A stretch of DNA of 64,000 bases from Whitmania pigra (lineage: Eukaryota > Annelida > Clitellata > Hirudinida > Haemopidae). The number at the start of each line of letters is the position of its first letter. Position 1 is the first letter of the stretch. The translations under genes were made by a program, and so were the position numbers. Of the stretch, positions 17,741-63,403 are shown piece by piece. The notes beneath the pieces are model-generated. The model searched no databases and was not told where the DNA came from. It worked only from the letters and a program-made list of their open reading frames with translations. The stretch spans positions 237,001-301,000 of the forward strand of contig JAJTWR010000428.1 of NCBI GenBank assembly GCA_021613335.1. Direction: 5' to 3'.

Positions 17741-19896
17741 CTAATTTGGAATTTCAACAACGTGTTCTAAATCGAATGAAACTTTTTTAATTGATTTCTT
17801 GCTTGCACCCGTGTTAGTAGCGTAGTCCCAGTCAAACCGAGGCTCTTCAGGCTCATCTAAACCACTTTCTGTGGACGTGTCTATCGGCCAAACTGAATGG
17901 ACAGAGTTTGTTGATTCCGGCCTTTCCACTTCCACGTTGTCATCGTTCAGCACTGAATGGGTGTCGATGTTCTCCACATGTTCCACAGGCTTAGTTTTCG
18001 TGTCTTCGTTCAAATCGAAGCCGGAATCAGATGATCTTCGATCTTCTGCGTTTCCCAAATCACTGACGACATCTGGTGGGATGATTTGAGGACTTTGAGC
18101 CATGTAGTGCTTCACGTGGTCGATGTCGACGACCGACGAGAATTTGGAATTTTTGCTGGAAAATTATTTCATAATTCTAATATATATATATAATCATAAT
18201 TCATATATCAAGAGTTGTTTTACACTCTAATTAATAACAATTCAAGTTAAAAAAATAAAATTTTGCAGCAACTTTTACCGGATCTTTTTATTGAAGAAGT
18301 GAGTGACCCAAATCGCGATGAGGCAGATGATGAACACAAGACTCAACGATACGCCTAAGCCAATCCCGAGATTTTTTTTAAATGACTCCCCTGAAATAAT
18401 TCTATAATTGTTAAAATTTGTTTTGAAATCTTGTAAATAAATAAACTATTTAATTACATTTTTTTGTATTATGATTCTATGCTTTATTATTACTAATTAT
18501 TACTATTGTTTTTAATTATTACTACTATTATTAAAATAACCTTCCGATAGATCGGTTGGACTTTTTTCCGAGGCATTATCAACAGGTCCTGATGAAGTTG
18601 ATGGCGAAGTAATTCTGGTACTTGATGACGACAAAGAAGTCGCCGTCGATGGCTGGGGTAACCTTCCATTTGTAGCGGTAGCTGATGTTGTGGAGGTTGT
18701 TGTGAATGTCGATGTGGCTGGAGTAGTTGAGGTGGTTGTGGTTGTTGTAGTCAATTGAATTGTGGTCGATGTGGCTGTGGTAGTTAAGATGGTTGTGGTA
18801 GTTGGGATCAATGTAGTTGTCGTGCTAATGGCTGGCGTCCGAACATTTGGTTGGTTTAACATTGTAGTGGTGGTGGTGGTTTGGCCTTTGGTTGTCCTTG
18901 GAGCTGAATATGTAATACTAAATTTAATATCAAAATATGTGTCTGCGTCACATTGCAATCAACTTAAAATAGCAACAGATAAATGAATATTAATTAAAGG
19001 CTTGACAAAAATATGAAAAAAAGTAATATTTACTCTGCGGGGAATTTGTTGTGAAAGTCTGTGAATTTTGAGCTGCAAGTTTAAAAGAATGGAATTTTTT
19101 AAATGAATGTGACGAAATAAAATATTCGCACAAGATTTTCAAATTGTTTGAGTGCCAAGCAATTTTATTGACTTCGACGAACCTCTCATGCAGACAACAG
19201 TCACGATTTTAGAAGAGCAAATTGAGTTCCACCACTTTGAACTTTCTTCTGGAGTAAAAAAGGTACAGTCACTTCCTTGGAAAAAGACGGGATTTCCGTC
19301 CTTCCAGTTTGTAAAGGACTGACTTGCAGATGCTGTTAATATCAATTATAGCCATTCATAAAGACATCTTAAATTATTCATCTAAGCTTTAGAAAATAAT
19401 TATATTAGAATTTGAATTGTAGACAAATATATAACGCATTGTAATAATTTGAGAAAAACTACTGCTGATCCAAATCCATTCTCCATTGGCATTTTTTTGC
19501 AATGCCAAAACAATAGTGTTTGTTTTCCCTCCTGAGGCTGTCACGAAGAAAGTCTCCACTGATTTTTGAATGTCAGAATCGAAAATGGACAAGAGTTGAC
19601 TAGGAGGACTTGTGGATTGGCAGATGTCAAGGATTTCTTTGGTGTTATTCATAAGAACTTGTCCGACTACATTATAACAGTATCGATTATCACACTTTTC
19701 TTCTAGTGCTCTCATCCCGTTGAAAAGGCCTGTTATTCAATAATGCATTCGGTGAGGTTATGAAACATAAACATGATCATTTGCAAAAGTAATTCCCGAG
19801 CTAAGGAATTAACCCGAAACCTATCATCACGATTTCCAAGGAAAGTTTTTCACAAGAATACTCACCCAGGAGAAGGCCAAATGCAGAGAAATACAT
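17741..19896 (-). CDS. Membrane C-type lectin receptor with Thr-rich mucin stalk, 458 aa
   Basis: Seven exons on the minus strand: 19896-19866, 19729-19463, 19332-19183, 19072-19034, 18903-18541, 18390-18279 and 18155-17741. Modules in order: signal peptide (MYFSAFGLLLGLFNG), one CTLD split over exons 2 and 3 (ends in VTVVCMR, contains FTNWKDG), a short linker, a 121-codon stalk very rich in Thr and Ser that should be densely O-glycosylated, a transmembrane helix (LGVSLSLVFIICLIAIWV) followed by basic residues, and a cytoplasmic tail of about 138 residues rich in Ser, Asp and Glu. The tail lacks clear ITIM or ITAM spacing (DYATN is the nearest tyrosine). Extracellular exon borders are phase 1, as in the plus-strand lectin genes. 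Ligand unknown. Confidence 0.85.
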
Positions 19897-21996: not shown

Positions 21997-23723
21997 ATGT
22001 TTCGCAAGTATTTCTATCTTATTTTTATGGTTACTGTTTTGGTAACATTTTCGATCTCGGATCTCGCTGGCCATTGGGACAAAACGTTCTGCGAAGATTT
22101 TTTGTGCCTCTACTTCAATGGTACAAGTGTTTATGCACAATCAAATGAGGAAGCAAACACCATTTGCTCGAGAAGTGGACATATATTACTTGAAATTCCA
22201 AACACGAGAGTTCAGGGAATTGTTGACAAAGCAACTGCATCTTGGGATAATTATGTCAGACCTTTAAATGGATTTTATTTCAGATTGAATTTGGTGCAAG
22301 TTGTACAGGAAGAGTGGACGTGGATAAGCACTGATGAACCTTTGGGTTTGCAATAGTAATTAATTATTATGATGATATTATTACATAAATAAAACTTAAA
22401 AGGTTAATGAGATTGTACATCATTTGGTTAATATTTATATTAAGCTTCTACTGAATCGATAACAAGTTATCCGTATTTTGCCATCGTTCAAATAAATTCA
22501 TCTGGTATATATTATGGAACAGAGTTTGAAAGATCTAAATATCCTTCCATTTGTTCCCGTCAAGGTAATATTTATTTATTTGGCGTTTAAGGATTACAAA
22601 CATTACTTGTGAAAATAATGTTGCTTATGAAATTTTCACCTTAAAAAACTGCATTCATTTTTATACTGCTAATAAAAAATTTCGGAATGAAATTATTTTA
22701 AATTACCAAGGAAACTTTAGGAACCCAAAAAGTTGTTCAATGCGTGAAAATGGATCAAAGTTATGCTTCGAAGTTGTTGAGACAGCCGCTAACTGGTTTG
22801 AATCTCGAAGTAATTGTCGATATAGGAGTGGTGATTTGGCAAGAGTCATCAAAAATCCTTTACCACAATGGATTTCCAATGTTCCTGCTGGAAGCTACTG
22901 GATCGGTTTGACGAAAGCAAAATATGTTTGGAACTCAACTGGTAAGATCAGCATGAAGTATCACCGTTGCATTCCAAATTGATTCAGTCGTTACGTGTCG
23001 CGTTCGATAACCAGTTTGCACCGGCACAAAGTCCCCTTGGGATGCAGCGCTATACAAATGGTTGAGCGCCCATTACACTTACGCTTGTGGCTTTAAACAA
23101 ATAAATAAACATAGACATAAATATGTACGTATTTTATGATTTAAAAGTAATTATTTAGCAAAAATGATCTTGTACAGAGTTAGTATTGAAATGAGAATAG
23201 TAGAAATTAACAAACTCATTTCACTTCAATGCTGAAATCTTGCATAAATTTTTTTTAATAAGAGAAATACTATGTCTTAAAACACTTTGTAATCATTATC
23301 AGGTCAAGACTCAAATTATTTCAAATGGTATGACGGGGAACCCATCCAAGGTCATGACTGCACTTATATTTCGCATAGTGATTACAAATCTCCAAACTAT
23401 TTAAGAAAAGCCCCATGCATTGGAGGCAATCCATTTTTCTGCATGGCTGAATCTGGATCTAAAGGAAACATTCAAATTCTTCGAAGCTCTACAACGAGAT
23501 TCTCAGACCCAAGTTTATTTTTACTTTGTATTACTTCATCTCATATTGGCCTAAACTATTATAATTTGAAAGTTCAATTTCCATTGCGTTTTCATTCCCA
23601 TGAATTGATAAAACAGGAATTTAAATTCATTCAGGTCCTGTTGGAATCTTAGTTGGAGTTGCAACCTTCGGAATGATTGTTATGGTTGGTGTTGTGCCAT
23701 TTCTTTTGTTTCCAGAAACTTGA
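21997..23723 (+). CDS. Lectin array gene L1: two CTLDs plus membrane anchor, 332 aa
   Basis: Five exons: 21997-22345, 22445-22564, 22711-22941, 23303-23512 and 23635-23723. Signal peptide first (FYLIFMVTVLVTFSIS). CTLD1 spans exons 1 and 2 (CLYFNGTSVYAQSNEEAN, FRLNLVQVV, WTWIST; ends SICSR). CTLD2 spans exons 3 and 4 and is more canonical: CFEVV, ANWFESRSNC, GDLARV, YWIGLTKAKYVW, WYDGEP, HDCTYI and a final FFC. Exon 5 is the transmembrane segment (PVGILVGVATFGMIVMVGVV) and stops soon after, so there is almost no cytoplasmic tail. The stop results from a frame that is offset by one base relative to L3. Exon 3 must start at 22711, because the later AG at 22720 breaks the frame. Intron 3 carries a SINE-like insertion shared with L2. 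Confidence 0.82.
22981..23108 (+). mobile_element. SINE-like or LINE-tail insertion in L1 intron 3
   Basis: A GC-richer block beginning near GATTCAGTCGTTACGTGTCG, containing GTCCCCTTGGGATG and GCGCTATACAAATGG, and ending in an ACAAATAAATAAAC tail. Related blocks lie at 25684-25806, about 46085-46140 and, inverted, 61966-62135. The tail of simple A/T repeats is typical of SINE or RTE-type 3' ends. Confidence 0.6.
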
Positions 23724-24701: not shown

Positions 24702-26422
24702 ATGATTCTAAAGTATTTTTACCTTATTTTTTTGTTCACTATGATGAAAATATTTTCGATCTCGGACGCTGAATATTGGGACAAAACGTTCTGCGAAGAT
24801 TCTTTGTGCCTCTATTTCAATGGTACAAGTGTTTATGCACAATCAAATGAGGAAGCAAACACCATTTGCTCGAGAAGTGGACTTATGTTACTTGAAATTC
24901 CAAACGCGAGAGTTCAGGGAATTGTTGACAAAGCAACTGCATCTTGGGATAATTATGTCAAACCTTTAAATGGATTTTATTTTAGATTGAATTTGGTGCA
25001 AGTTGTACAGGAAAAGTGGACGTGGATAAGCACTGATGAACCTTTGGGTTTGCGATAATAATTAATTATTATGATGAAATTATTAAACAAATAAAACTTA
25101 AAAGGTTAACGAGATTGTACATCATTTGGTTAATATTTATATTAAGCTTCTACTGAATCGATATCAAGTTATCCGTATTTTGCCATCGTTCAAATAAATT
25201 CATCTGGTATATATTACGGAACAGAGTTTGAAAGATCTAAATATCCTGCCATTTGTTCCTCTCTAGGTAATATTTATTTATTTGGCGTTTAAGGATTACA
25301 AACATTACTTGTAAAGATAACCTTGCTTATGAAGTTTTCACCTAAAAAAATCTGCATTAATTTATGTAATGGTATTAAAAAATGTTGGAATGAAATTATT
25401 TGAAATTACTAAGGAACCTTTAGGAACCCAGCAAAATGTTTAATGCGTGAAAATGGATCAAATTTATGCTTCGAAGTTGTTAAGACAGCCGCTAACTGGT
25501 TTGAATCTCGAAGTAGTTGTCGATATAGGAGTGGTGATTTGGCAAGGGTCATCAAAAATCCTTTACCACAATGGATTTCCAACGTTCCTGCTGGAAGCTA
25601 CTGGATCGGTTTGACGAAAGCAAAATATGTTTGGAGCTCAACTGGTAAGTTCAGCCTGAAGTATCACCATTGCATTCCAAATTGGTTCAGTCGTTACGTG
25701 TCGCGTTCGATAACCAGTTTGCACCGGCACAAAGTCCCCTTTGGATACGGCGCTATACAAATGGTTGAGCGCCCATGACACTTACGCTTGTGGCGTTATA
25801 CAAATAAACATAAACATAAATATGTACGTATTTTATGATTTAAAAGTAATGATTTAGAAAAAATGATCTTGTACAGAGGCAGCATTGAAATGAGGATAGT
25901 AGAAATAACAAATTCATTTCACTTCAATGCTGAAATCTAGCAGACTTTTTTTTAAATAAGAGATATACAATGGCAATACACTTTGTAATCATTATCAGGT
26001 CAAGCATCAAATTATTTCAAATGGTATGACGGAGAACCCATCCAAGGCCATGACTGCACTTATATTTCGCATAGTGATTACAAATCTGCAAACTATTTAA
26101 GAAAAGCTCCATGCGTTGGAGGCAAACCATTTTTCTGCATGGCTGAATCTGGATCTAAAGGAAACATTCAACTTATTCAAAGCTCTGCAACGAGATTCTC
26201 AGACCCAAGTTTATTTTTACTTTGTATTACTGCAACATCTCACATTAGCCTAAACTATTATAATTTGAAAGTTCAATTTCCATAGCGTTTTCATTCCCAT
26301 TTAATGATAAAACAGGAATTTAAATTCATTCAGGTCCTGTTGGAATCTTAGCTGGAGTTGCAACCTTCGGAATGATTGTTATGGTTGGTATTGTGCCTTT
26401 TCTTTTGTTTCCAGAAACTTGA
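24702..26422 (+). CDS. Lectin array gene L2: two CTLDs plus membrane anchor, 331 aa
   Basis: Five exons: 24702-25047, 25147-25266, 25414-25644, 25999-26208 and 26334-26422. The closest relative is L1, which it matches in exon lengths, sequence and intron content. Signal peptide (FYLIFLFTMMKIFSIS), CTLD1 (exons 1 and 2), CTLD2 (exons 3 and 4, with CFEVV, YWIGLTKAKYVW, WYDGEP, FFCM), then a transmembrane exon ending in the same early stop as L1. The product should be a membrane-anchored lectin with a minimal tail. Intron 3 keeps the same SINE-like insertion at the equivalent place as in L1, so the insertion predates the L1/L2 duplication. Confidence 0.82.
25684..25806 (+). mobile_element. SINE-like or LINE-tail insertion in L2 intron 3
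   Basis: Nearly the same as the insertion in L1 intron 3, at the orthologous place. It was duplicated together with the gene rather than inserted separately. Confidence 0.6.
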
Positions 26423-27322: not shown

Positions 27323-28958
27323 ATGATTCTAAAGTATTTTTACCTTACTTTTTTGTTCACTATATTGAAAATATTTTCGATCTCGGACGCTGACCATTGG
27401 GACAAAACGTTCTGCGAAGATTCTTTGTGCCTCTATTTCAATGGTACAAGTGTTTATGCACAATCAAATGAGGAAGCAAACGACATTTGCTCGAGAAGTG
27501 GACTTATGTTACTTGAAATTCCAAACGCGAGTGTTCAGGGGATTGTTGATAAAGCAACTGCATCTTGGGATAATGATGCCAGACCTTTAAATGGATTTTA
27601 TTTCAGATTGAATTTGGTGCAAGTTGTACTGGAAAAGTGGACGTGGCTAGGTTTTGATAATGAGGATGCTTATTTGGGTTTGCAATAATAATTTATTATT
27701 ATTGTTAAAAAATTATTAAATAAATAAAACTTAAAAGGTAGACTGGAATGAACATAGTTTGTTATTTACATTAAGATTCTACTGAATCGATACCGAGTTA
27801 CCCGTATTATGCCGTCATTCTTAAAAATTCATCGGGAATATATTACGGCACAGATTTTGAAAGATCTAAACATATTTCAATTTGTGCCTGTGAAAGTAAT
27901 TCTTTTTAAATTTTGCATTTCAACATTGAAATCATTAAATATAAAGCTAACGTGGTTAATGATGTTTTTAACGACAAAAATCTGCATTTTTTTTGTGATG
28001 CTATTAAAAAAAATCTTGAAATGAAATGAATTGAAATTGCTAAGGTACCTGTTATAACCCAACGCGTTGTTTAATACGTGTAACCGGAGATGATTTCTGT
28101 TACGAGATTTTTAAGACAGCCTCTAACTGGTTTGCATCCCGAAGCTATTGTCAAAGCAGAGGTGGTGATTTGGCAAGAGTCTTCATACGTCATTCACCAA
28201 AATGGATTGCTAACTTCCCTAATGGAAGTTACTGGATCGGTTTGACGAAAACAAAATATATTTGGAGCTCAACTGGTAATTTAGCATGAAATATGAGTAT
28301 TATATTCCATAAATATATAGCCTTATATATTTTTTAAATAGTTATTTAAGTAAATAGTAATCTAGTTGTGGTAGAGATAGTACTGATTTAAGAATATTAG
28401 AGATAACAGATTTGTTTTAGTAATGAAATTTTATAAAAATGGTTTTGTTATAAATATGTTAATTTGAAATAAAATGCTTTGAAACATTTCATAATTACCC
28501 TTAGGTCAAACGTCAAATTATTTCAAGTGGTTTGACGGGGAACCCATCCAAGGCCATAACTGCACTTATATTTCGCATAGTGATCACAACTCTCCGAACT
28601 ATTTCCGAAAAGCTCCATGCAATGAAGGCAAACCATTCTTTTGCATGACTGGACCTAAACCTGGAATAATTCTAGCTATTAAAACTTCAACAACAAGATC
28701 CTCAGACCCAAGTTCTTTTCAACTTTTTACTGCGACATCACATATTAGCGAAAACTAATATAATTGGCAACTTCAATTTCTATTGCGCTTTTATTCCCAC
28801 GTAATCATAAAACAGGAATGTAAATTCATTCAGGTCCTGTTGGAATCTTGGCAGGAATTGCAATTATTGTGATGGTTGGTATTGCGCCATTTTTTTGTTT
28901 CCAGATACCTGACTATCTTTCCATTCGTTTCAGGGCGAAAGGTTTTAGAAGCAACTGA
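27323..28958 (+). CDS. Lectin array gene L3: two CTLDs plus membrane anchor, 345 aa
   Basis: Five exons: 27323-27677, 27776-27895, 28045-28275, 28505-28711 and 28834-28958. Signal peptide (FYLTFLFTILKIFSIS). CTLD1 differs from its neighbours near the exon 1 end (WTWLGFDNEDAY instead of WTWISTDEP) with a small insertion. CTLD2 is intact: DFCYEI, ANWF replaced by SNWF, YWIGLTKTKYIW, WFDGEP, HNCTYI, FFC. The transmembrane exon (GILAGIAIIVMVGIAPFF) continues in the ancestral frame into a short basic tail, RFRAKGFRSN, before the stop. It lacks the one-base shift that truncates L1 and L2. Probably a plasma membrane lectin that would need a partner to signal. Confidence 0.82.
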
Positions 28959-30291: not shown

Positions 30292-32081
30292 ATGTCTTTG
30301 AAGTATTTCAAACTTGTTTTTATATTGACTATTTTAGAATTATTTTCGCCCTCGGACACTAATCAGTGGTATAAAACGTACTGTGAAAATTTGTTATGCC
30401 TTTACTTCAATGGTACAAGTGCTTATGCTCAATCCAACGAGGAAGCAAACAACATTTGCTCAGAAAATGGACTCATGCTATTAGAAATTCCAAACGCGAC
30501 AGTTCAGGAGATTGTTGACAAAGCAACTAAATCTTTTGATGTTTATGTCAGACCTTTGTTTGGTTTTTTTTTCAGACTGAATTTGGTGCAAGTTGTAGAG
30601 CAAAATTGGAAATGGATAAGCACTAATGAACCTCTAGGTTTGCAATAATAATTGCTTAATTTATTAAATAAATAAAAATTGACAAGATAATTCCTATTCC
30701 ATAACATTCGATTATTATTTACAATCAGATTCTACTGAATCGTTATCAAGTTATCCTTATTTTGCCATCGTTCAAAAAAATTCATCTGGAATATATTTCT
30801 TCACTGAGTTTGAAAGATCTAAATATCCTTCCATTTGTTCTTGCAATGGTATTTTTTTATTTTAAACATAAGGAATAAAAGCATTACATAAAAAGATATC
30901 GTTGCTTTCTGAAGTTTTCCACCTGCAAAATTTATGTTGTACTTGTTATTACAAAAACTTAAAATGAAATTAATTAAAATTAATAAGGAACCTGTAAGAC
31001 CTCAGAAAATTGTTCAATACGAGACAGTGGATCAAATTTCTGCTACGAGGTTGTCAGTACAGCCGCTAACTGGTTTGAATCTCGAAGCAATTGTCAAAAC
31101 AAGGGTGGTGATTTGGCAACAGTCGTCAAAAGTCCTTCACCACATTGGATTTCCAATGTCCCTGATGGAAGTTACTGGATCGGTTTGGCGAAAGCAAAAT
31201 ATGTTTGGAGCTCAACTGGTAATTTAAAATGAAGTGTAACTATTACATTATATATTGCTTATAATATAATATTATTTTTTATATTTTATATAATACTACA
31301 TTATTGAAATAATCCGGGTTTTCGCAAACTAGCAAGTGAACTAATAAGTTAATTGAATAAGTATTCAGTTATTAGAACTAAATCTTCAAATTAGGAACCT
31401 GAGTTCCTAGGGCTTAGGGATGTCTTGGATCTTGCTTGTCGAACTTTTTAATCTTAATCAAGATCTTCGCTTCAATGATTCGAAATGATAATAAACTTAA
31501 TCAATTAAAATTTTTAATTATAAAATACTTTGCAGTTTTTCTTAAATGCAATTATTTAACAAAATTGAAATGACCTTGTAAATGAAATATTAAATGAGAG
31601 TAATCATCTTCAGGTCAAACATCAAATTATTTCAAGTGGTTTGACGGGGAACCCGTCCAAGGTCATGATTGCACTTACATATCGCATAGTGATTACAACT
31701 CTACAAACTATTTCCGAAAAGCTCCATGCAATGAAGGCAAACCATTCTTTTGCATGAATGGAACTGTAAAAAACAACCAAACTGCTCAACGATCAACAAC
31801 GAGATCCTCAGACCCAAGTTTTTATTAATTTTTTTACTGAGACATTACCAAAAACTGTTATAATTTGTATTGCGTTTTTAATCTCACGTAATCATAAAAC
31901 AGGAATTTGAATTTAATCAGGTCTTATTGGAATCTTAGCTGGAGTTGCAATTTTCGGAATTGCAATGATTGTGATGGTTGGTATTGCACCATTTTTTGTT
32001 TCCAGATACCTGACTACCTATCCACTCGTTTCAGGGCGAAAGGTTTTAGAAGCAACTGAAGATAAAAGAATTAATTGTTAA
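30292..32081 (+). CDS. Lectin array gene L4: two CTLDs plus membrane anchor, 353 aa
   Basis: Five exons: 30292-30637, 30729-30848, 30988-31218, 31614-31817 and 31921-32081. Signal peptide (FKLVFILTILELFSPS). CTLD1 in exons 1 and 2 (CLYFNGTSAYAQSNEEAN, WKWIST). CTLD2 in exons 3 and 4 (NFCYEVV, ANWFESRSNC, YWIGLAKAKYVW, WFDGEP, HDCTYI, FFCMNG). The transmembrane exon (GVAIFGIAMIVMVGIAPFFV) is followed by a 30-residue tail ending EATEDKRINC. The C-terminal Cys could be lipidated, but no CAAX box is present. The start is set at the ATG that gives a clean signal peptide; an upstream in-frame extension exists. Intron 3 contains a diverged LTR-like fragment. Confidence 0.82.
31305..31400 (-). mobile_element. 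Diverged LTR fragment in L4 intron 3
   Basis: Begins TGAAATAATCCGGG and runs through GTATTCAGTTA, paralleling the reverse complement of the LTRs at 39518 and 41068 and the solo LTR at 20467. After about 90 bases the match fades. Likely a related but older or different LTR subfamily; the far end and target duplication are not found. Confidence 0.5.
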
Positions 32082-39826: not shown

Positions 39827-39860
39827 TTGGTGTCAGGAGTGGGATCCCAAAAAGTAAGTC

Positions 39861-44682: not shown

Positions 44683-45986
44683 ATGAATTTATGTGATTTG
44701 AGGTATTCTCAAACGTTGATTTTATTGATGTTCCTGAGAATTTGTACAGGATGGCATTATCTATATGGTGAGTATAATAATTCGTTTATAAAATGTAAAC
44801 AAAAAATTTTCGTTTTCGTTTCTTAAAGATTGAACTTCTTTTTCAGAAACCTCCTCGTCATCTTATTCTGCTAGTTCTAGTTAGTAAGATAATATTTTAT
44901 TAGTAACATTTATTTCTCATTATAAGAACTTCTAAGTTAACACAATCAGTGACGCTTACTCAAACTTCAACAAATGACTCAAGAATGTCATCAATTTCAG
45001 CTACTTCATCTACAATGAGTGAAGTCTTTTCAACAACAACAATGTCATCAACTTTTTCTACTTCATCTTCGACGAATGACGTCTCTTTAGTAACAACAAT
45101 GTCATCAAGTTCGGTTATTTTAGCTTCATCAAATAGAGTTTCAAAATTTGCCACGTTTACTACAGTTAATCTAACGCAACCTTTGACATCTGTCAAAAAT
45201 TTTGTACCTGAATCACCACCAATACATTCTACAAATTCCGTTATGAACTTTACAGAACTTCCACCGATTCAAGGGAAAGGTTGAAACGTTTTTCAAATTA
45301 ATTCGCAGTTTTTATCGATAATCAACTCTCATCTTATAAAATTATGATTTGAAATGAGAAAATAACATTATAAATAACAAAATATTAATTAATTCTTAAA
45401 GATGTTGCTCCAGACAACAAATCTTTGGGAATTGGACTCGGCATTACATTGCCAGTCATTGCGCTTGTTTTGGTAGCCATCTTTTTTTACAAACGCAGAA
45501 GGTAATTTTTTAAATGAATTTCTTTACTTAAAGCTTAATTTATTACTTAAACAATAATCGAAATATTTAATTTCAATATTTGCTATTTTGAGCTATGAAA
45601 TATAAATTTAGAGGCAATAAAATATAGCATAATAACATCATTTTAGATCGTTGAATGATGAGAATGCCTCGATTGGTAAGACAAATGTCACGAAAGTCCA
45701 AAGTAACAAGAAATCGGTCACAAAAGAATTAGTAATATCAAAAGAAATTCCAAAAATAAATAAATCACGTACTCCTGATAACATTTACTATAACATCGAA
45801 ATGGCGGATGAGGCCCAGAAAAATAATGAAACATCCACAGAAGAATACTACAACGTCGTAATTGTACCGAAGGAAGAGTTGAAAAATCATTCCATTCATC
45901 AACAAGATGGAACTGCTGAAAGTCAATATGCCTCTCTCGACATTTGTGGAAACTCAGAACACCTTTATACTGGCTTTAAGATGTGA
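44683..45986 (+). CDS. Mucin-like type I membrane protein without CTLD, multi-tyrosine tail, 295 aa
   Basis: Five exons: 44683-44767, about 44847-44879, 44950-45279, 45402-45501 and 45647-45986. Signal peptide (TLILLMFLRICTG). Exons 2 and 3 form a Ser/Thr stalk with repeated TMSS/ATSS units. Exon 4 is the transmembrane helix (LGIGLGITLPVIALVLVAIFF then YKRR). Exon 5 is the tail, with NIYYNIEM, EEYYNVVI, SQYASLDI and a final HLYTGFKM. SQYASL matches an ITIM. The weak point is the small exon 2 and its junction to exon 3: a stronger-looking donor nearby would create a stop, so I used GTTAGT. The C-terminus is homologous to that of the preceding gene. Confidence 0.72.
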
Positions 45987-46715: not shown

Positions 46716-49025
46716 ATGTTCCTCATTTTTGTAAAAGGTCAGTTAAATAACATTGTTTCATCTTATTTTACATACATTTTTAATATTAGCGTTATGAATT
46801 TTGAAATGAACTAATAAAAAACTTTTTAGGCATCATTTCCTTTATTTTACAGCCATTACTTTACTTTTGCTCCTGCGCAACATTCTGGCACTATATCACT
46901 GCGATAATAAGCTGAACATATGTTTGTTCACAAACGGCACCATTTATGTGGACACTTTGGAAGGTGCTCGTAACAAATGCGCGGGAAATAGCAGCATACT
47001 TCTGGAAATTTATGACGAGGAATATCAAAATGTCGTCGATCAAGCCTTTCGAAATTGGGGAGTTTTTAATGGGAACAATTTGTGGTTGAACCTCGAAAGA
47101 GACGGACAAAATTTTCGCTGGATTAGCACAGGTATGCTTTATAATTATTTTTCGTTGAAAATTATAAAAAAAAAACTAAATTATATTTAAATAATTCTTA
47201 AAATACTTAAAGGAACTTTATTAATTATTTGATATTTATTTATGAATTCAGAATTTATAATCAGTTACTTTGTTGAAGCAATTGTGTTAGAAATAAATAA
47301 TTATAAATTTTTACTAATTAATTGGTTATTAATATTATTATTATTATTATTGTTGTTATTATTATTATTATTATTATATTATTATTATTATTAATTCACG
47401 AACAAACTATCATTGACAGGAAAAGCGGTGACTTACACTAAATGGTCACAAAATCCAGATGGTGCAAGTTACGCATGCATATGCTTCAGTGATAAGTAAG
47501 ATTATAATTGATATTATTATTATTATTATTACTATTTTAATATTGCAATATTGCTTACATTAAAATGCGGCATTGCCAGTTTTGAAAGCAAACATTGATT
47601 TTTCAACAATATCGAATTAATTAAAATTAGTAAAAGCTTCATAACTATCAACAATATAAAAATAAATTATTTTAATGACAAATTATTAAAATTATTTGTT
47701 TTTTCAGCTCTTCAAATTGGCAGCCATATTGGTCAGGTGATTCTGAGCGTGCATTCATATGCTTACAAAGTAAATACAAAGCTTGCAATTGTTATTAAAC
47801 AATTTAAAATTTTAAAAGTTTAATTTTGTTGATTTTGGGATAAATTTATTGCTTATAGTATTACTAGAGGCACCAATTTGATTGCGTAATGTGCCAAAGT
47901 CATTTAAGCAATGTTGCAATGTTTTAATTGAATAATATCTTTCAATGCTTCATGTTTCCATCTTAACAAAGCAAAAGTTTATTTAAAATGTAACTGGTAA
48001 CGATAACGGTAAAGATAAGTTGAGAAGGCACGAAGCTTAAACCGAACGAATTAATATTAATTATTAATTAATTAATGAATGAATAATTATTATTAATGAA
48101 TGAATGAATAATTATTATTAATGAATGAATGAATGAATAATTATTATTAAGTAATGAATGAATGAATAATTTTTATTAATAATTGAATAAATGAATAATT
48201 ATTATTAATTAATTAATGCAACTGATGCACAGATTCGAGTCAATCGTCATCTCCAAACCGTGAGAAAACAACAGGAATACCGCAAAGTAATTTTAATAAT
48301 AATTTAATTATTGATGGTATTACATTCTAAAAATATTAAATTTGTTCTTTAAAATTAAGAACATCCTCAGCCAACAATCATTAATTTCCAAAGCAATGAA
48401 GGAAATAATGAGGACGAAACAATAAACAAGAAAGTACTCATAGGATGCCTTGTTGCACTCTTTCTATTAATTCTTTTGGCTGCTATCCTTCTTTCTATTT
48501 GGTGTTTTAGCAGGTGAGAATTAATTTTATGTTAGTGATTGTAATTTACGTTTAGTAATTGTCATAAATTAAGCATAGCTTGTTAAGTAATTAAATTTTA
48601 CATTAATACTGAGTAATTGGTTAACTAATGTTTGTACAGCTCTACAATCAAGTATGATGCCAATTTTATTTCACAGGAGAAAGAAGAAACTGAACACTTT
48701 AAACAAAGATGTCCAAATTGGTCAAATACCACCTCCCTACGACTCATCAACTCAAAAATCTCAAAATCCAATTTATTACATCAACAAGGACAGCAACAAC
48801 ACTTTAACGGCAACCCGAAAGAATCTCTCAAATTTGTACATAAGAGCAAACGACAATCTTTCTCATATCATTCGATATCACAAACCTCCAGAATTGGGAG
48901 ATGATCATTCGATCTACGAAACAATTAAGACAGTCGATATTAATTCATTTAATGATCCTGGTGCTAATGATCAGACAAATAATTATTACTGCAATGACGT
49001 CTACACAGAAGATTTCAATGTTTGA
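46716..49025 (+). CDS. C-type lectin membrane receptor with ITIM-like tail, 331 aa
   Basis: Seven exons: 46716-46737, 46853-47131, 47420-47495, 47708-47769, 48233-48286, 48360-48513 and 48677-49025. The signal peptide spans exons 1 and 2 (MFLIFVKAITLLLLLRNILA). One CTLD lies on exons 2-4 (CLFTNGTIYVDTLEGARNKC, LWLNLERDGQNFRWIST, TKWSQNPDG, AFICLQ). Exon 5 is a short Ser-rich stalk. Exon 6 has a charged linker and the transmembrane helix (LIGCLVALFLLILLAAILLS). Exon 7 is the tail, with PPPYDSS (possible WW ligand), PIYYIN and SIYETI (ITIM consensus). The tail exon must start at 48677: an earlier AG at 48641 opens a different frame with an unlikely product. Introns carry ATT and AATG repeats. 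Confidence 0.83.
47330..47395. repeat. ATT microsatellite in intron 2 of the 46.7 kb lectin gene
   Basis: Imperfect ATT repeats of about 65 bases, intronic. A second, shorter ATT run follows exon 3 near 47515. Confidence 0.85.
48056..48222. repeat. AATG / ATTATT compound repeat in intron 4
   Basis: Tandem TGAATGAATGAATAATTATTATTAA-type units with varying AATG number, ending just before the stalk exon at 48233. Likely length-variable between individuals. Confidence 0.8.
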
Positions 49026-49412: not shown

Positions 49413-51192
49413 ATGGAATGTAAGCCTTCGTTTGTATTTTAAGCCTGATTACAAAAAAAATGATTAACAAATGAATACATAAAATAGTTTTTATTAAACA
49501 TAATAAATATAATTGCAATAGCCTTAGCTTAAACAACATTTTCTTATTAATACTTAACGGATATTAAACCTTCTGATTCGACAGGGTTGATATTGTTCCT
49601 TGTTTTAACGGTTGTAGGCACAAAGAAATGTCTTTACAAAAGCGATTACTTGGAGTTTTGCATCCACATAGATCCAAATTACAGAGCCTACAACTTGGAG
49701 GAAACGCAGAAGATTTGTGCCGATCTGAACAGCACGTCTCTAGAAATTTACAACCAAAGCTACCAATTCGAGATTGAAAAGTTGCTCAGATCAAACCCGT
49801 CCCTCATCGGAGTCAGGTACTTTCTAAACCTTGGATACGTGAAAGGAACTCTGATGTGGTTGACATCGAGTGAGCAGTTGTTCGATTTATTTGTCAATTC
49901 TCTAATAAGTTTTAATAATGATCATTGTTAAGTAGCTGTGATCCGTAACCATGAAATTAACATTTAAAAATGCTAAATATTTATGCATTAAAAATAAATA
50001 ACTTTGGCTTTTAGACATGGAAGCCACTTTTACGAATTGGTACGAACCAGTTAACTTTACCTCAGCAAAGGTTTTTCTCCTGGTAGCAGACGACTTAACA
50101 GATTCATATTGGGAAGCTCTCGACGTTGAGGAGACTGAGGGATTTGCCTTCATCTGCATCGAACATTTGTACCCTGAAGTCTTAGGTCATTTTATTAATA
50201 ACCTAACATTTGCTATTGCAAATAATAATAATTACAACAATAATAGCAAAATGATAATAAGTAATGTAACAATTGTAATGTAATATTAACATTAATAACA
50301 TTAATAATTGTGATTTTAACTATTATTATACGAACTATTGCTTATCTTTGTTACCTAAATAGCCCTACTGCTAATAGGTACTAACCAATAACTACTACAA
50401 AAATATTTTTGAATCATTAAATTTTAAATATGATTATTTATCAAAGATAGCAAGACGGACATATTATACCAGTTCAGCTCAGTTCCTTTGACTGAGGACA
50501 ACAATACCATGGAATATGACTTCGAACCAATTACTTTATTCATGAAATTTGACTGGACAACGACAACATCGAATAAAATGAACGAAAAACCGTTCGAAAT
50601 TCGAGCAGAAGTGGCCCTATTTTTGGGGACAGCAATCCTCATCCAGCCCTTCATCATATTCATTGCCTTCATGGGAATGCGATATGTTTGGTTAATTTTT
50701 CCTTTTCTTATTTCTTTGATTTTGAGTTGTCTTTTAATGACGTTTTTTTTAAGTCTTTTAAGTTAAAAGTTGTTACAATTAGTTCCTGTCTGCTTGTAGC
50801 ACTAGTAATTAAGCTGTCACCGTTTTAAAATTGATTTACAGTGCGTATTAGTAAATATTTATTTTTTAGGAATAAATTTATTTTCTGATCGCAAAATTAA
50901 TGTGCCATCTTATGAATTAATTATAAGTGAATAATGTTTCATCGTAAAAATTGTTTCAATTCATAGGAATTCCAAAGACTTCGTTCCCCAAGTCACCCCT
51001 TCCTCAAGCTTGCCAATCTCTGGACTCGCCCGCCATCGTTACTGGAGTTCTGGGCAGCCTCAAGTTAAATTGTCGACATACTCCTTTGTTGAAAAGAAAA
51101 GAAACTCGTATTTACAAAAATTTGAAAATTCCAGACATAGCTTGCAAGAGTCCTCGTCGCGGATGAACAGTTATATATCTAATATGATTTAA
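49413..51192 (+). CDS. C-type lectin membrane protein with proximal TM/tail module
   Basis: Supported exons: 49413-49419 (only ATG GAA T, with a strong GTAAGC donor), 49585-49869, 50015-50185 and 50447 to about 50685. The signal peptide reads MEWLILFLVLTVVG once exons 1 and 2 are joined. One CTLD lies on exons 2 and 3 (CIHIDPNYRAYNLEETQKIC, FLNLGY, TFTNWYEPVNF, FAFICIE). It has no obvious calcium motif. The exon from 50447 adds an acidic stalk and a transmembrane helix (LFLGTAILIQPFIIFIAFMG). A likely tail exon is 50967-51192 (from NSKDFVPQ; Ser-rich, no ITIM), but I could not find a donor that joins it in frame, so the end of this form is unresolved. Exon 3 can equally join the module at 55401. 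Confidence 0.62.
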
Positions 51193-51706: not shown

Positions 51707-52165
51707 ATGGCGGATATCGATAAATTTCTGGAACCATTTGCGAAACCCTGGTTCGCTCAATTGCCGAGAAATCTACGATCATCCCTAATTTCATGCCTTT
51801 CGAACCGAACAAAGAATTGTGGTGTGACTACATGAGTCGGTTTCAAACCTTTACAGAAGCAAACTCTATTCCGACCTCAAAAATTACTCAAGTTTTTCTC
51901 ACAAACCAGTCAACTTCAATTTACAAACTCTTGCAAACTGCGGCTTCACAAAAGACAATTCCATGTGAAGTCAATAAGTTAGAATTTTCGGAAATTCAAG
52001 CAGTAATGATGGAAAATTTCAACCCCAAAAGATTTATTGTGAGAGAAAGGTTTAGTTTTTGGACCGAGATAAAAAGGTAACCTGGCGAGACCATTCAAGA
52101 ACTCGCGGCGAAAATTCGAACAGCAGCTTCTACGTGCGACTTTCCTAGTATTGAGGACACACTCG
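51707..52165 (+). pseudogene. Gag region of the Ty3/gypsy element, frameshifted
   Basis: Starts at an ATG (MADIDKFLEPF), shifts frame near 51790, continues as FEPNKELWCDYMSRFQTF with a capsid-like helical pattern, and meets a stop near 52078 before resuming. This is a broken gag. I describe it as found and do not rebuild it. Confidence 0.8.
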
Positions 52166-52173
52166 ACGAAGCC

Positions 52174-53541
52174 TTGAGAACAAGATTTATGTGTTCTGTT
52201 GACAACGAGGCGGTTCTCAAGTCGCTTTTCAAAACTCCAGAAGATGAATTAACTTTCAATCGGGCAGTTGAAATCGCTACGGAAGTGGAAGAATCTTCTA
52301 AGGTCGCCAAAGCCACAGTACACGGCACACCGGACGAACCGGTAATGAAAGTGTTCAAACCTGCCGAAAACAAACAAGAAAAAGTAAATTTCAAACCAAG
52401 ACGCCAGGTACAACAGCTCTCTAAATTTCCATTCCCGAAAGGAAAGTGTCCAAGATGTGGAACAAAAGGACACCACGCCAATGATTGCAGGCATGTCAAA
52501 ACGGAATGCAACTTTTGTGGAATCATAGGACACTTAGAAAAATCATGTTTAAAGAAAAATTTCAAAGGAGAGAGAAAAGTGAATTCAATCCATACAATTC
52601 CGAGCCACTCCCCTCTCATACAAAAATTACAAATTGCAAATTCGGAATTTGTTTTCGAGTTGGACAGCGGAGCCAGGGATAACTTTTGCTCAATGGAAGT
52701 GTGGAACAAGTGGGGAAAACCCAAGCTAACACCTTCCAGTACGAAATATATTTCCGCAACTGGGGACTCAATCCCGAACTTAGGAGTCTGCGAAATGATG
52801 GTTTCGACATCAGACCTTCAAGAAGTACCTCTAGAATTCAATGTCACCAAGTTGACAAAACTCAACATTCTTGGCAGGAAAGCCATAGTTGAACTGCAAA
52901 TCGATATGTCAAACTTGCTACGCAATCATGTTTTCAAGGTTGATGAAGAAACGGATTCAAAAACCGTCGAAACAGCATGTCTCAAAATTTGCCACGATTT
53001 CAAAGAATGTTTCGAGCAAGACCTTGGTTGTTTGAAAGATTTCGAACTAGAGGTAAAATTCAAACAGGAAGCAACGCCAATTTTTGTCAAAGCAAGAACA
53101 GTTCCATTTGCAATTCAGGAAGATCTGAATCAGGCTCTTGATGCAGGAATAAAGAAAGGGATTTGGATCCCAACACACTTCAATGATTACGGAACTCCGA
53201 TAGTTCCGATTCGAAAGAGTCTGAGACCAAGCGAAAAGAAGGCTCAGTTTCGAATCTGCGGAGATTATTCGGTGACCGTAAATTCCCAGTTGGAACCTCA
53301 TCGATACCCAATGCCACTGCCGGAGGATCTTATGAGAAAACTTGGAGGAAGTCGTTACTTCAGCAAGATTGTTTTAGCAGATGCATTCAATCAAATCAAA
53401 CTCACTCCAATGAGTCAACAAAAACTCTCGTTGACCACAAATAGAGGAGTGTTACTTCAAACGAGACTACCTTTTGGAATAATTTCAGCTCCAGGTTACT
53501 TCCAAGAAATAATGGACAGATTGACGTGTGTCACTATCTAG
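52174..53541 (+). pseudogene. Gag C-terminus, protease and N-terminal reverse transcriptase, 455 aa frame
   Basis: An open frame of 455 codons. It contains two CCHC knuckles (52447-52488, CPRCGTKGHHANDC; 52507-52548, CNFCGIIGHLEKSC), an aspartic protease active site ELDSGA near 52660, and the N-terminal reverse transcriptase palm and fingers (RICGDYSVTVN, YFSKIVLADAFNQIKL, RLPFGIISAPGYFQ). It ends prematurely when the frame shifts just before the catalytic YLDD motif. Typical of Ty3/gypsy order; the copy is inactive. Confidence 0.9.
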
Positions 53542-54269
53542 ACGACATTCTTGTCGGTGGTTCCAACTCCAAAGAACATCTTCAAAACCTGAAAGCTTTA
53601 CTACAAAGGTTACGAGACAAAGGATTGAGATGCAATAAAAGCAAGTGCATTTTTGCAAAAGATTCGACGGAATATCAGGGACTCGTTATTTCAAAAATCG
53701 GGATAGAAAAGGGGAAACGTGCGGACGCTTTGACGAACATGCCAAGGCCAACAAATACATCAACATTACGCTCATTTTTGGGATCAGTGCAGTTCCACCA
53801 CAAATTCATCCCAAACCTTTCGACCATTGCAGAGCCGTTGACAAGTCTAACCAGAAAAGAAACACCCTGGATTTGGAGTTCGGAAGCAGAGAGGTCGTTT
53901 CAAAAGTTGAAGGATATCTTGGCGAAGGAGGTGCAACTTGCGCATTTTGATAAAACTCTTCCTTTAGGAATTGCATGTGATGCATCAGATGTGGGCATCG
54001 GTGCAGTTTTGTTCCACCGATATCCGAATAGAAGTGAACGACCAGTTTTACATGTTTCAAAGACACTTTCAAAGGCACAAAACAGATGGAACGATCTTAC
54101 GTCCAACAAGAGAACGAACAACACCAAATTCGATGTCGGGAAACCCTGTTACGTACAACGCATCGGTCCGGGTAAGGATCGCGTTCCTAGATGGATCCCT
54201 GCAATTGTAGTTCAAGTCTTGGGACCTCGCCATGTTTTGATACAGGCCGTGCCAAAAGGACCTACTTGA
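53526..54269 (+). pseudogene. C-terminal reverse transcriptase, RNase H start and integrase end, 247 aa frame
   Basis: Begins at the catalytic HYLDDILVGGSN, continues through the thumb (LRSFLGSVQFHHKFIPNLS) to the RNase H entry (IACDASDVGIGAVLF). It then jumps at about 54100 to a short segment like an integrase C-terminal barrel (FDVGKPCYVQRIGPGKDR, VPRWIPAIVVQVLGP). The rest of RNase H and the HHCC and DDE integrase domains are absent, an internal deletion of likely over 1 kb relative to full-length elements. Confidence 0.9.
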
Positions 54270-54759: not shown

Positions 54760-54764
54760 CTCTC

Positions 54765-55400: not shown

Positions 55401-56367
55401 GCTTAATTTCGAGAAAACCTGAAACGGCAACAATAACAACTACAACCACCACAACTGCTACTACAATTTATAATCCAACAACTACATATTCAACATTTGA
55501 ATCAACAACTGAATTGACTTCAACTGTGTTCGATACAAATAGAAGTGTACAGAATGACAATCTTTATCTGATCGTCATATTACCGATATTAGCTATTGCA
55601 TTCATCTTAGTGCTCATAATAACGTTAACAGTATGGATTTCAAAGATTCGGTTAGAGTTTTAGATTTGGTAAATGAAGAACTAATATTGATAACATTATT
55701 CACTTTATGCATTGCTTATAATAATTATTTATAATGCTGTAAGTAAAAATTACCTCGTATTAAATGGTCTGTCGTTACATTTTTCATCAAAGGAATATTT
55801 CATAATAAAAGATTAAATGTATAACAATAAAGTATTATAAAATATAATAATTAAATGTATAACAGTAAATCTGCCTCATAGTTATATAAACAAGTCATTG
55901 TTTAAATAAAACCTTAATTAATTAAATTAAAAATATCAATAACAATTTCCAAAAGTATTAAATTTTTTATTTCAATAAAGATTAAACGTTTACAGGCGAT
56001 CAAAGGATAAATATACCAAAAGCAATTTTCAAGCAGACAATGACAACAAAACACTTGAATATGCCGAACTAGATTTCGTAAAGAAACCAGATCTTGTCCA
56101 GGGCGACATTCGAAATAACAAGTAATAAATTGCATTGTTTTATTACGTGTAAATGATAATAATAAGTTGGTTGATATTGAGATATATATTAATTTCTAAC
56201 ACAATTAAAAATTAATATTTCTACACGTTAAACATATTCTCTGCAGTCAAGAGACAAATTGTGATCGAGAAGATGTGGTTTACAAGTCCACGGATGAAAA
56301 AGCTCTTCTTTACGTGGAAGTGACCTTTGAGAAGAATAACGATATTTACATAAACAGCCGACAATAA
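55401..56367 (+). CDS. Distal stalk/TM/ITIM-like tail module of the 49.4 kb lectin gene
   Basis: Three exons: 55401-55650, 55996-56121 and 56247-56367, joined in phase. They encode a Thr-rich stalk, a transmembrane helix (LIVILPILAIAFILVLIITL then VWISKIRRSK) and a tail with LEYAELDF and LLYVEVTF, both ITIM-consensus matches, ending INSRQ. There is no signal peptide or CTLD nearby. The first exon accepts a phase 1 donor, as offered by the CTLD exon ending at 50185; joining 49413-49419, 49585-49869 and 50015-50185 to these three gives 319 residues with an open frame. So this is either an alternative 3' end of that gene, its original end now separated by the retrotransposon, or the remains of a gene that lost its 5' half. 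Confidence 0.72.
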
Positions 56368-56714: not shown

Positions 56715-56822
56715 ATTAGCAGTGTGATTTATCATATCTTCATTAGCAGTGTGATCTATCATATCTTTATTAGCAGTGTGATCTATCATATCTTTATTAG
56801 CAGTGTGATCTATCATATCTTT
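56715..56822. repeat. 27-base minisatellite, four copies
   Basis: Four tandem copies of a 27-base unit (ATTAGCAGTGTGATCTATCA then TATCTTT), at 56715, 56742, 56769 and 56796. The copy nearest the LDLa-1 gene supplies its last codons and stop. A second minus frame through the array is also open (DMIDHTANK repeated). Confidence 0.9.
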
Positions 56823-59091: not shown

Positions 59092-59123
59092 GCTGCGTTC
59101 GTGACAAGCATGAAATGTTATTT

Positions 59124-59288
59124 TCAATAACTGATTTAAGATTAACATTATTAATTTCAACAACTGATTTAAGATTAACATTATTAATTTCAACAACTGA
59201 TTTAAGATTAACATTATTAATTTCAACAACTGATTTAAGATTAACATTATTAGCTTCAACAACTGATTTAAGATTTGCGTTATTAATT
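59124..59288. repeat. 33-base minisatellite, five copies
   Basis: Five tandem copies of a 33-base unit (TCAACAACTGATTTAAGATT then AACATTATTAATT) just upstream of LDLa-2 exon 1. Length is a multiple of three, so open frames run through on both strands; they are low-complexity artefacts. Confidence 0.93.
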
Positions 59289-60566
59289 TTTGTATTACTA
59301 AATTACATATTAATAAATTTTATTATTAATTGCAAACTTACCAGTCGATTGGAATAATAAATAGAATGGATACTCGCTCAAGAACAAATTGTGCTACAAT
59401 GCTGCCGATTTCAGTCGCACAAAAAGTGCACTTAAAAATGAATTATTCAACCTCCTCTTCTTTCTGGTCTGTCTCTCTATTCTAATTACAAGTATTATTT
59501 TAAGAAGCACATATTATCAATATAATATAACGATCGAATCGCACTCATCGGCTTTTAAATTGCAAAAATAAAATGTTACAGTCGATCATCGGCAGCAAAT
59601 CTAATCGTCTCATTTCGAATTTTGTCACATTTTTTATTTATTTATTTATTTTATTAGATATAATTGAAGGGCCCAATTGGACCTCTAACACAATTGCGAA
59701 AAAACCAAAAAGAGATTAAATGTAATTAAAAAATTAAAAACAAAATTAAAAATTAAAAAGTATTGATTAAAGTCTAAGTCACGTATTATGAGCTGAAACG
59801 GGAGACAGTGGTTGATTTTATGGCTTTTCTCGGACAAATTTTATTTTTGCAAATTTAGTAATGATTTTAGAGAATCTAGGTTGAGTTAAGATTTGAAAAT
59901 TGCTCTTAGCAGAGACACATAACGTCAGTAAAACCGTTTTTACCAAGATAAATGAGTTTGGATGGAATTCATTCAACAGTGAAATTTCATTAAAATTATG
60001 ATATATTAATTTATTCATTATTTTTGGCCAACAAGAACAATATGAGATTTAATAATATCATCTCGATGCATTACCACAACGTGATTCATGCGATTGTTTT
60101 ACGATAAGATGATTAAGTTTCTGTCATGAGTTACTGTTTATGAATGGGATAAACACATGACGCTTAAACGATTCACATTTATCATTTAATTAATCAATAT
60201 CCAAATAAAATAAATAATTTTATTCAGAAATATTAGTTAATAAAAATCAAAATTCAAAATTAAAAAGTTCAAATTCCAAACATAAATGAAAGGCCACACT
60301 TGAAAATACTTGCGATGCACTTTTATACAAGTGGCTTTCTCACGCACATGCAGATCACAGGGGATGTTATGCTAATTAAGTTCGTTATATCTGCTCTGCA
60401 GAAACAAACATGTTTTGAGTGGATTATCGTCAGGAAGCAATTCTCGTCTTAAGAAATTAATTTTTGTTGAAAAAACACATTTTCGACTGTACGAAAATTC
60501 GTCATCGAATAGAAATCAAAGTTAGGAAATCATACGATTTATTTTATTGAGAATTTTATCCAAGAA
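59289..60566. other. Spacer upstream of LDLa-2 with a possible LINE tail
   Basis: About 59650-59700 holds GAAGGGCCCAATTGGACCTC, GC-richer than its surroundings and followed by A-rich repeats, possibly a non-LTR 3' tail on the minus strand. An open frame at 59389-59571 is hydrophobic but unsupported. The remainder is AT-rich and empty. Confidence 0.4.
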
Positions 60567-61639: not shown

Positions 61640-63403
61640 ATGGAAATCCCGATAACCATCATCGGCTTCATCAGCTTCATTCCAATTCTCGATTTGACTC
61701 CCGCTTTCCACTTCAAGCACTGCCAACAAGATGCATGCTGGAGGGGACTCACCCTTAACAAAGGCATCGGCGCTTTGGGAGCGAGGAAGATCTGCAATAA
61801 ATATGGCTACGACCTCGTCATTATAAACAGCAATGAAACCCAAATCTTCGTGGAGGAGTTACTGAAATCGAAGGATCTCGAATTGAACAGAGATTCTTTG
61901 TTTTTTATCGGCCTCACGAGAAGAACAGATCAGTGGCTCTGGCTGAACGGATCGCATATCGAGAGTAATTGTAATTGTAACTTCATTTATATAGCGCCAT
62001 ATGCATAATGTCAGAGGCGCTTCTTGTAGCCATTCCCAAGGGTGCTAGCGGCAGTGAAGGCTGGGTTTCAAACGCGACACATTACGACTGTCGCCATTAC
62101 CACCGTATGCAGGCACGTAACCCATTCGTAGAGTACGTAAATATTGGAAATAGCATTACATACTTAATATAATTATGAATTCATCATCATCTGTAAACGA
62201 TAGATCGATGTCATCAGTTTGAATTCAGAACTTGTTCAGCATTTCTTACAATTTCTCAACCAGCAAAACTACTTTAAAACAGCGCTGATATGCAACTAAC
62301 TGAAGTCATTTATTTCATAATTTCAGATCATCGAAGGAATTTTTACAATTGGGACATTAACGAACCAAGTACTGGTTCCTGTGTAGCCGTGCGAATCGAA
62401 AACTTCAAGTGGGCAACATTGCCGTGCAAAAGTGGCTTCAAATTTATTCTCTGCAGCACTAAAAGTGAACTTCAGTTGATTTCGAGGATTTTAAAAACAT
62501 TCGTACGTAATTATGATATATTTATAATGACTCTCAGATGATCAGATCGCTACATTTTCTGATGAAGAAGAGTTTCAGACAGGAATGAAAAGGAAGTTGA
62601 GACAAGTTTCTCCAAATGGTTTGTAAATTGAATAATTAAATTGATTAATTAATTTATTAAGTTGTTCAGGCTTAACGTACTATTTCATAGATATTTTAAT
62701 TAAAGTTTTAATAAAACTTTGTGTTTAAAATGAACACATTTGCATAAATAACCAAATTAACAAATTATTTATTACGTAATTTTCAAGTATCAGAATCCCA
62801 GGATACTGCTTTAAATGAACCAGAAGCCCTTTCTGAAAATTCTGGTTGGTCTATTTCGACATTTTAAAAATTAACTTTTGCGAATTATCATTTATTATGG
62901 AGTCAGCATAAACTGATATGCGAATTACTTTAAAGGTTTTATAATTAATTTTACATAATTTATAATATAACTAATTTATTTGAAATAAATGTTAAAATTG
63001 TATTTCGTTCAAATTAATTGCAGAGGGCACTGCCAGAGTGGGCTGGATTTTCAGCAACGTAATGACAGCCATTGTTCTGCTGCTAGGGATGGTAATGGTA
63101 GTGATGTTGTTGTAAGTGAATTTATGATGTGAATTTTTTCCACCATTGCTTATATCACGAACAAGAAATTATTTCTGAAATGTTACTGCTTCTTATTTAT
63201 TCGTTCACTTACGACATTCGATAAATAGTAGATCTATAGCATATATCTGCATAAATTTGCATAAATCTGCATAAATCTGCAGACAAGTTTGGCAGATGAA
63301 GACGAAAGTGAAAAGAATGGAAAGGGAATTGCAGCAGAGATATCGCAACAGTTTCCTGACTTCCAGTATTGGTTCCATAGGTTACAATGAGGCAGTTTTG
63401 TAA
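61640..63403 (+). CDS. C-type lectin membrane receptor, 269 aa
   Basis: Six exons: 61640-61964, 62327-62464, 62538-62618, 62788-62844, 63024-63111 and 63283-63403. Signal peptide (ITIIGFISFIPILDLTPA). One CTLD on exons 1 and 2: CWRGL, GARKICNKYGYDLVII, SLFFIGLTRR, QWLWLNGS, then FYNWDINEPSTGSCVAV, WATLPC and FILC. EPS in the EPN/EPS loop and the WD strand make this the CTLD in the window most likely to keep calcium-dependent sugar binding. Two acidic linker exons follow in place of a Thr stalk, then the transmembrane helix (MTAIVLLLGMVMVVMLL) and a short basic tail of about 39 residues with GYNEAVL at the end. All extracellular borders are phase 1. Intron 1 holds an inverted SINE-like insertion. 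Confidence 0.86.
61966..62135 (-). mobile_element. SINE-like or LINE-tail insertion, inverted, in intron 1
   Basis: The minus strand reads CAGTCGTAATGTGTCGCGTT, ACCCTTGGGAATG, then GGCGCTATATAAAT, matching in order the blocks in L1 and L2 intron 3. It lies immediately after the exon 1 donor. Confidence 0.6.

Follow-up and report, generated by a model that had tools for sequence, protein, structure and literature searches.

A locus of lectin-like and mucin-like membrane receptor genes with tyrosine-motif tails in the leech Whitmania pigra

We analysed a 64,000-nucleotide stretch of the genome of the leech Whitmania pigra (the window; C363:237001-301000 in a 178 Mb, 381-contig assembly), where a sequence-only reading had described a 46-kb locus of ten or more modular membrane receptors, each built from a signal peptide, zero, one or two split C-type lectin-like domains (CTLDs), a Ser/Thr stalk, a transmembrane (TM) helix and a variable tail. 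Positions below are those of the window unless a contig is named. Exons were identified by eye from a three-frame reading and then spliced by script, giving 13 genes of receptor type in the interval from 17.7 to 63.4 kb, with A on the minus strand and B-M on the plus strand; these models bear out both the number and the plan described, and their coordinates agree up to the end at 63403. The modelled exons splice in frame across GT-AG introns; the last join of K, the first exons of J and M and the middle exons of L are tentative. Two split CTLDs are found in B-F, one in A, J, K and L, and none in G, H, I and M, the ectodomains of which are Ser/Thr-rich; a Ser/Thr stalk is common elsewhere in the family.

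Gene A (17741-19896) encodes a signal peptide, one degenerate CTLD split between two exons, a Thr-rich stalk, a TM helix and a long, acidic tail that has two tyrosines and no immunoreceptor tyrosine-based inhibitory motif (ITIM). B (21997-23723) and C (24702-26422) follow a common plan of signal peptide, CTLD1, CTLD2 and TM helix, with a tail consisting only of FPET; D (27323-28958) and E (30292-32081) also have two CTLDs and a TM helix, and end in a short basic tail. At F (34113-36363), two CTLDs, a Ser/Thr stalk and a TM helix precede the first of the long, multi-tyrosine tails, a class comprising F-J and M; it contains YDNL-x7-YDMI, TIYDEL and SPYDKL (36208). Three genes without a CTLD follow, each with a signal peptide, a mucin-like stalk and a TM helix: G (37143-39059), whose tail carries YANL-x11-YAKL and therein LNYAKL (39000); H (42433-43289), with SQYANL (43224) and, further on, AYTGFPA; and I (44683-45986; one small stalk exon tentative), with SQYASL (45921) and LYTGFKM. 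In J (46830-49025; first exon not found) the CTLD occupies three exons and is followed by a stalk, a TM helix and a tail with SIYETI (48909), and K (49585-50766) has a CTLD-like region in two exons, tentatively joined to a hydrophobic third. M (55401-56367; signal-peptide exon not found) combines a Thr-rich stalk and a TM helix with two tail exons, which bear LEYAEL (56054) and LLYVEV (56305). L (61640-63403) encodes a signal peptide, a CTLD in two exons, a TM exon (63024-63111) and a tail exon (63283-63403), its exons at 62.5-63.0 kb being tentative; the tail, of ~39 residues, lacks a strict ITIM. The range of tails, from almost none to multi-tyrosine, is as had been described, and the seven ITIM hexamers quoted in the sequence-only reading were all located in open frames, in six genes.

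The cluster runs beyond the window: CTLD-like and multi-tyrosine tail exons continue to ~C363:318.7k, ~18 kb past the window end, so that the 46-kb span stands, but as part of something longer. A genome search with the two-CTLD ectodomain of the window gave 23 matches, none of them outside C363: they fall in B-F and J and, more weakly, at two sites on the minus strand, at 312 and 318 kb. Close to these, and near CTLD-like exons, the minus strand encodes a pair of related long tails (C363:310.7-311.3k and 317.2-317.7k), which contain TTYETI, VYMN and either NDYMPL or NDYTPL. On the other flank, CTLD-like exons of a further lectin-type gene were recognised by eye at 756-1776 (minus strand), where the exon at 1417-1776 gave no Pfam match.

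In all eight genes that have a separate tail exon (A, F, G, H, I, J, L and M), the intron between TM helix and tail is in phase 2; B-E have no separate tail exon. Introns 5' of the TM exon are mostly in phase 1; the CTLD of J is interrupted by one in phase 2. The reading is open through all exons read in the 12 TM-bearing window models. Topology is type I as judged by eye rather than by a signal-peptide program: a signal-like peptide is N-terminal, and the TM helix and tail are C-terminal.

The CTLDs read by eye were scored with the Pfam Lectin_C model (PF00059; curated cutoff 22.6 bits), except that C, D and E were placed by their alignment with B and F rather than by scans of the whole proteins. 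The profile search expected to recover CTLDs did so for B (39.6 bits) and F (42.5 bits), in each case in the second CTLD, and for the spliced domains of J (36.4 bits) and L (53.5 bits); A fell short at 15.4 bits, and the Pfam scan gave no Lectin_C match for K or for the first CTLD of C. One exon of a second array, on contig C169 (see below), scored 34.2 bits. A profile of ten CTLD regions, second CTLDs included, found 109 PDB sequences at E 0.01, led by an IgY receptor, PLA2R, Ly75 and the mannose receptor; the 60 listed of these 109 we take, from their names, to be CTLD proteins. A profile made from the first CTLDs together with J and K found CD302 alone (E 0.009). We nonetheless regard the first CTLD as a very diverged member of the CTLD family, since its weak match of its own in the PDB is accompanied by a match to the profile of C169 half-CTLDs (97.6%, E 3.8e-12), which itself finds 30 PDB sequences, including PLA2R, CLEC1B, Dectin-1 and NKG2-D. 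Two protein searches with F for homologues outside this genome returned none at E 0.001 (7985 candidates, and 237 for the CTLD region), a result of little weight given a library that is perhaps poor in animals.

Tail motifs were counted against 20,000 within-tail shuffles of nine tails (A, D, E, F, G, H, I, J and M; 814 residues, 44 tyrosines), leaving aside those of B, C, K and L. Strict ITIMs ([SIVL]xYxx[ILV]) number seven, in six of the nine tails, against a shuffle mean of 1.83 (P 0.002), which upholds the proposal that these hexamers are commoner than chance. Pairs resembling the immunoreceptor tyrosine-based activation motif (ITAM; YxxL/I-x(6-12)-YxxL/I) were found in two tails, those of F and G, and in none of the others tested (0.21 in shuffles, P 0.026). 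YAx[LV], a motif picked after the data had been seen, occurs five times against 0.16, and YxN sites 12 times against 4.8 (P 0.056 by number of genes). Both controls were flat: the reversed motif gave 2 against 1.83, and eight ectodomains (A, B, G, H, I, J, K and L) gave one strict ITIM against 2.29. Among the tails of F, G, H, I and M, only those of H and I match each other, at the C-terminus (J was not queried); the ITIM counts are for this reason not fully independent, and simple copying does not explain the hexamers found in F, G and M. One C363 tail from beyond the window contains two strict ITIMs against 0.36 in shuffles (P 0.049).

Genome searches with G and with the CTLD both led to C169, where tandem genes of like plan occupy 40 kb (313-353k) and 20 kb (620-640k). 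Here a signal peptide and CTLD exon is followed by a second CTLD exon, a mucin stalk and TM helix in one exon, and a tail exon preceded by a phase-2 intron (a join read in two copies, at 318k and 343k). A search with the TM exon gave 16 matches, none outside C169, and two of these are halves of one frameshifted copy; the two arrays hence amount to the 13 window genes plus more on C363, and ~15 TM exons on C169, some in broken copies. Strict ITIMs are again frequent: eight C169 tail exons contain eight, in seven of the eight, against 1.09 in shuffles (P 0.0001), namely SIYAEV, LEYADL (three times), SRYEEV, SPYAEV, SPYTEL and SPYTEI. Upstream of the ITIM-bearing tail exons, YE[QH][IL] is present in 8 of the 14 TM exons entered. 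When three full C169 tails were tested, the copy at 340k had YxxI-x10-YxxL, which has ITAM spacing, that at 343k had YxxI-x10-YxxV, and the third had neither; in the copy at 348k both tyrosines of the YxxI-x10-Yxx pair are gone. In the C169 TM helix a Lys lies close to the inner end (LLIAKFVF).

The likeness to vertebrate paired receptors that had been drawn from the window sequence holds in part. By nonsynonymous (dN) and synonymous (dS) divergence, the ectodomain of E is nearest to that of F (dN 0.072, dS 0.165), and the tail of E is short and that of F long: this is the combination of similar ectodomains and different tails by which vertebrate-type pairs are known. The stalks of E and F differ too, as in paired receptors. 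The usual adaptor-coupled activating partner was not seen, because the TM helices of A-J, L and M, read by eye, have no charged residue (K, R, D or E) inside them. Pairing is accordingly supported for E and F, and not for an activating half. Over the ten pairs among the B-F ectodomains dN/dS is 0.42-0.83, with 0.83 for the closest pair, B-C, whose second CTLD reaches 1.14. These ectodomains appear to be constrained overall but fast-evolving.

The genome also contains candidates for one kind of protein with which such tails might engage. There are 80 matches to the SH2 family and at least 164 to the phosphatase family (150 of 251 candidates scored). In two places, pieces of both occur together on a single strand: C327:321.4-324.8k (three SH2, two phosphatase) and C177:285.5-289.9k (three SH2, one phosphatase); we consider these two places candidate SHP-type genes, with the layout expected of tandem SH2 domains and a phosphatase.

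Our preferred reading, to which we assign a probability of about 55%, is that these are tandem-duplicated, single-pass type I surface receptors of an annelid, the tyrosine tails of which signal via tandem-SH2 proteins. From the architecture and motifs described we infer a scheme in which degenerate CTLDs and/or an O-glycosylated mucin stalk would bind ligand, and Src-type kinases would phosphorylate tyrosines in the tails that the last exons supply. Phosphorylated ITIM-like sites would then recruit SHP-type phosphatases, and doubled YxxL/I sites at ITAM spacing would possibly recruit Syk-type kinases. The short-tailed B-E, which share the ectodomain type of long-tailed copies such as F but would not signal on their own, may serve the latter as co-receptors, supply ligand partners or work as decoys; with no charged TM residue in the helices read, decoys or co-receptors fit them better than the usual activating partner. 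Expression in blood cells and a part in immunity or self recognition would complete this scheme.

Several observations weigh against this reading. The exon models and motifs were read from the genome sequence alone; the first-CTLD profile reached only CD302 in the PDB; and the tails of A, D, E and L have no strict ITIM. The shuffle P for C169 overstates independence, because its tail exons are paralogous and some belong to broken copies: stops fall within the matched stretch of two of the eight tail exons (315.6k and 328.0k), the tail exon at 325.2k lies after a frameshifted TM exon (324.8k), and the copy at 348.8k has lost two of three tyrosines. Tyrosine columns of five C169 tail exons are conserved at 0.87 against 0.69 for other columns, which is not significant (P 0.12). 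The high dN/dS of B-C and of its second CTLD leaves room for relaxed constraint, and YxxL/V/I sites may equally be endocytosis signals. The broken C169 copies and dN/dS values up to 0.83 would be expected if the genes were mostly decaying tandem duplicates, their frames open through youth and their motifs shared by common descent; we think this very improbable, as the exons read are uninterrupted in all 12 window models that include a TM helix, and the F, G and M hexamers do not derive from simple copying.

The main rival to receptor signalling through SH2 proteins is that these are endocytic or scavenger lectin receptors, in which the tail tyrosines form YxxPhi signals for AP2-mediated uptake without any ITIM or ITAM signalling. 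Every strict ITIM site also fits YxxPhi, and it is endocytic receptors (PLA2R, Ly75 and the mannose receptor) that figure at the head of the PDB profile matches. Against this rival, Ala or Thr stands at +1 in 11 of the 15 strict ITIMs counted across the two arrays, in agreement with the preference of SHP-type SH2 domains. The surplus of YxN sites (subject to its P of 0.056 by number of genes) and the flat reversed-motif control also argue against uptake signals, which we hold to be a serious but minority possibility.

It is less probable still, and in our judgement unlikely, that the genes encode non-immune cell-adhesion or mucosal mucin-type proteins, for instance of an epidermal or gut glycocalyx, with tyrosines used in Grb2- or Src-type adhesion signalling. 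Four of the 13 genes are mucin-like and without a lectin domain, F and G give sub-cutoff Pfam matches to sialomucin MGC-24, TMEM154 and mucin models, and YxN sites are present in the tails. Against this reading, the tail and exon plan is shared with the lectin genes, and the ectodomains change fast.

The original observation of a receptor cluster is confirmed, and its interpretation partly supported. The tyrosine-tailed lectin/mucin clusters suggest that a receptor complex of the immune or self-recognition kind evolved independently here, the immune role of the cluster being a matter of inference. More tentatively, an annelid may have independently built a system like the natural killer (NK) complex, in which ITIM/ITAM tails, encoded in exons of their own downstream of shared types of ectodomain, would serve as inhibitory and activating coelomocyte switches in the recognition of self or microbes; we consider this possible but doubtful. 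The vertebrate NK-complex KLR/CLEC receptors and the Siglecs are clustered surface receptors with CTLDs (or immunoglobulin (Ig) domains) and with ITIM-bearing or short tails, and NK-complex lectins are type II. In the leech receptors topology is type I, CTLDs are split over two exons, a mucin stalk is frequent and the tail is C-terminal; no one-to-one homology is shown. Homology to NK-complex lectins was rejected on topology, and when A, B, F, G and H were scanned with Pfam, no Ig family was matched at E 0.1, which for these five sets aside an ectodomain of the Siglec, Alr or FcoR type. Kinship with NK-complex lectins or Siglecs, to whose clusters the sequence-only reading had likened the locus, is thus not supported.

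Among invertebrate receptors, Drosophila Draper is not known to contain a CTLD. In the available excerpt of a published account, Draper signals by an ITAM via Shark and its isoform Draper-II by an ITIM via Corkscrew, a Syk-family kinase and an SHP respectively (PMC9008705): it is thus a protostome receptor with both types of tail, but an engulfment receptor whose tails are isoforms of one gene. The Botryllus schlosseri fester/FcoR proteins of the fuhc locus are described, in the excerpted text, as type I, with long tails bearing an ITIM, a hemi-ITAM (hemITAM) or a core YxxI/L/V, beside partners without such motifs (PMC12065747). An invertebrate gene cluster that sets long motif-bearing tails beside partners without signalling motifs (the fester partners being comparable with B-E if these are decoys or co-receptors) is the likeness; the difference is that FcoR ectodomains are built of Ig and sushi domains, and those of the leech, known here from genes alone, are C-type lectin-like and mucin-like. 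Excerpts on Hydractinia Alr likewise report ITIM/ITAM motifs (PMC12065747) and 41 members (PMC11999971) in an invertebrate gene complex, here cnidarian and with Ig-superfamily ectodomains; oyster CgSiglec-1 is given as an Ig protein (PMC5877582). Ig-based ITIM/ITAM complexes are therefore known (Hydractinia, Botryllus), and the lectin/mucin version in an annelid is new; we take it as such because the titles and abstract openings of open-licence literature on invertebrate ITIM or immunoreceptor C-type lectins and on leech lectins and immunity contain no such complex. If correct, the reading would place ITIM/ITAM-type complexes with lectin and mucin ectodomains in lophotrochozoans, in addition to the Ig-based complexes known from cnidarians and tunicates, with the tail code as the constant part and the ectodomain as the variable one. 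Because leeches can be maintained and sampled for blood in the laboratory, tests of expression, SH2 binding and challenge are feasible.

Arrays of canonical EPN/WND-type C-type lectin exons, perhaps secreted, were also seen at C283:435-476k and 583-628k. We set these aside from the family: their CTLD exons are canonical and no such tail exon was found (in 9 of 17 C283 pieces, plus strand, frames of at least 60 residues). The salivary C-type lectins of Hirudo medicinalis, which the excerpted source describes as CTLD genes in tandem and treats as anticoagulant-related secreted proteins (PMC7303139), resemble the C283 arrays more than the window receptors.

The window contains other features besides the receptors. 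Retroelement-like gag-pol frames (zinc knuckle, reverse transcriptase-like) were read by eye at 51724-54269, between K and M, and a 331-residue acidic open frame between G and H (39858-40853), perhaps gag-like or else a gene of another kind, resembles the SAP domain only weakly, at 17.9 bits against a cutoff of 23.9. A two-exon LIX1 (Limb expression 1) gene lies at 6690-7811 on the minus strand (Pfam 201 and 68 bits), and a sorting-nexin-like PX-domain exon at 3794-4066 on the plus strand (23.4 bits; cutoff 21.6). An Rfam scan of the window gave nothing at the gathering threshold. Arrays of triplets and minisatellites lie at 1-326, 48044-48218, 56715-56822 and 59118-59289; among them are (ATA)109 and 5.2 copies of a 33-bp unit.

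The host had been taken to be an invertebrate, and the rest of the genome agrees and points to a leech. The telomere-type repeat (TTAGGG)4 has 288 overlapping matches and (TTAGG)5 none, on which grounds we discounted an arthropod or a nematode as the source. There are 58 antistasin-domain matches, many of them clustered (C89, C374 and C343), five matches to the annelid erythrocruorin linker, four of them above cutoff, and one hirudin-family match above cutoff, at C1:784192-784248, which is partial (19 of 64 positions).

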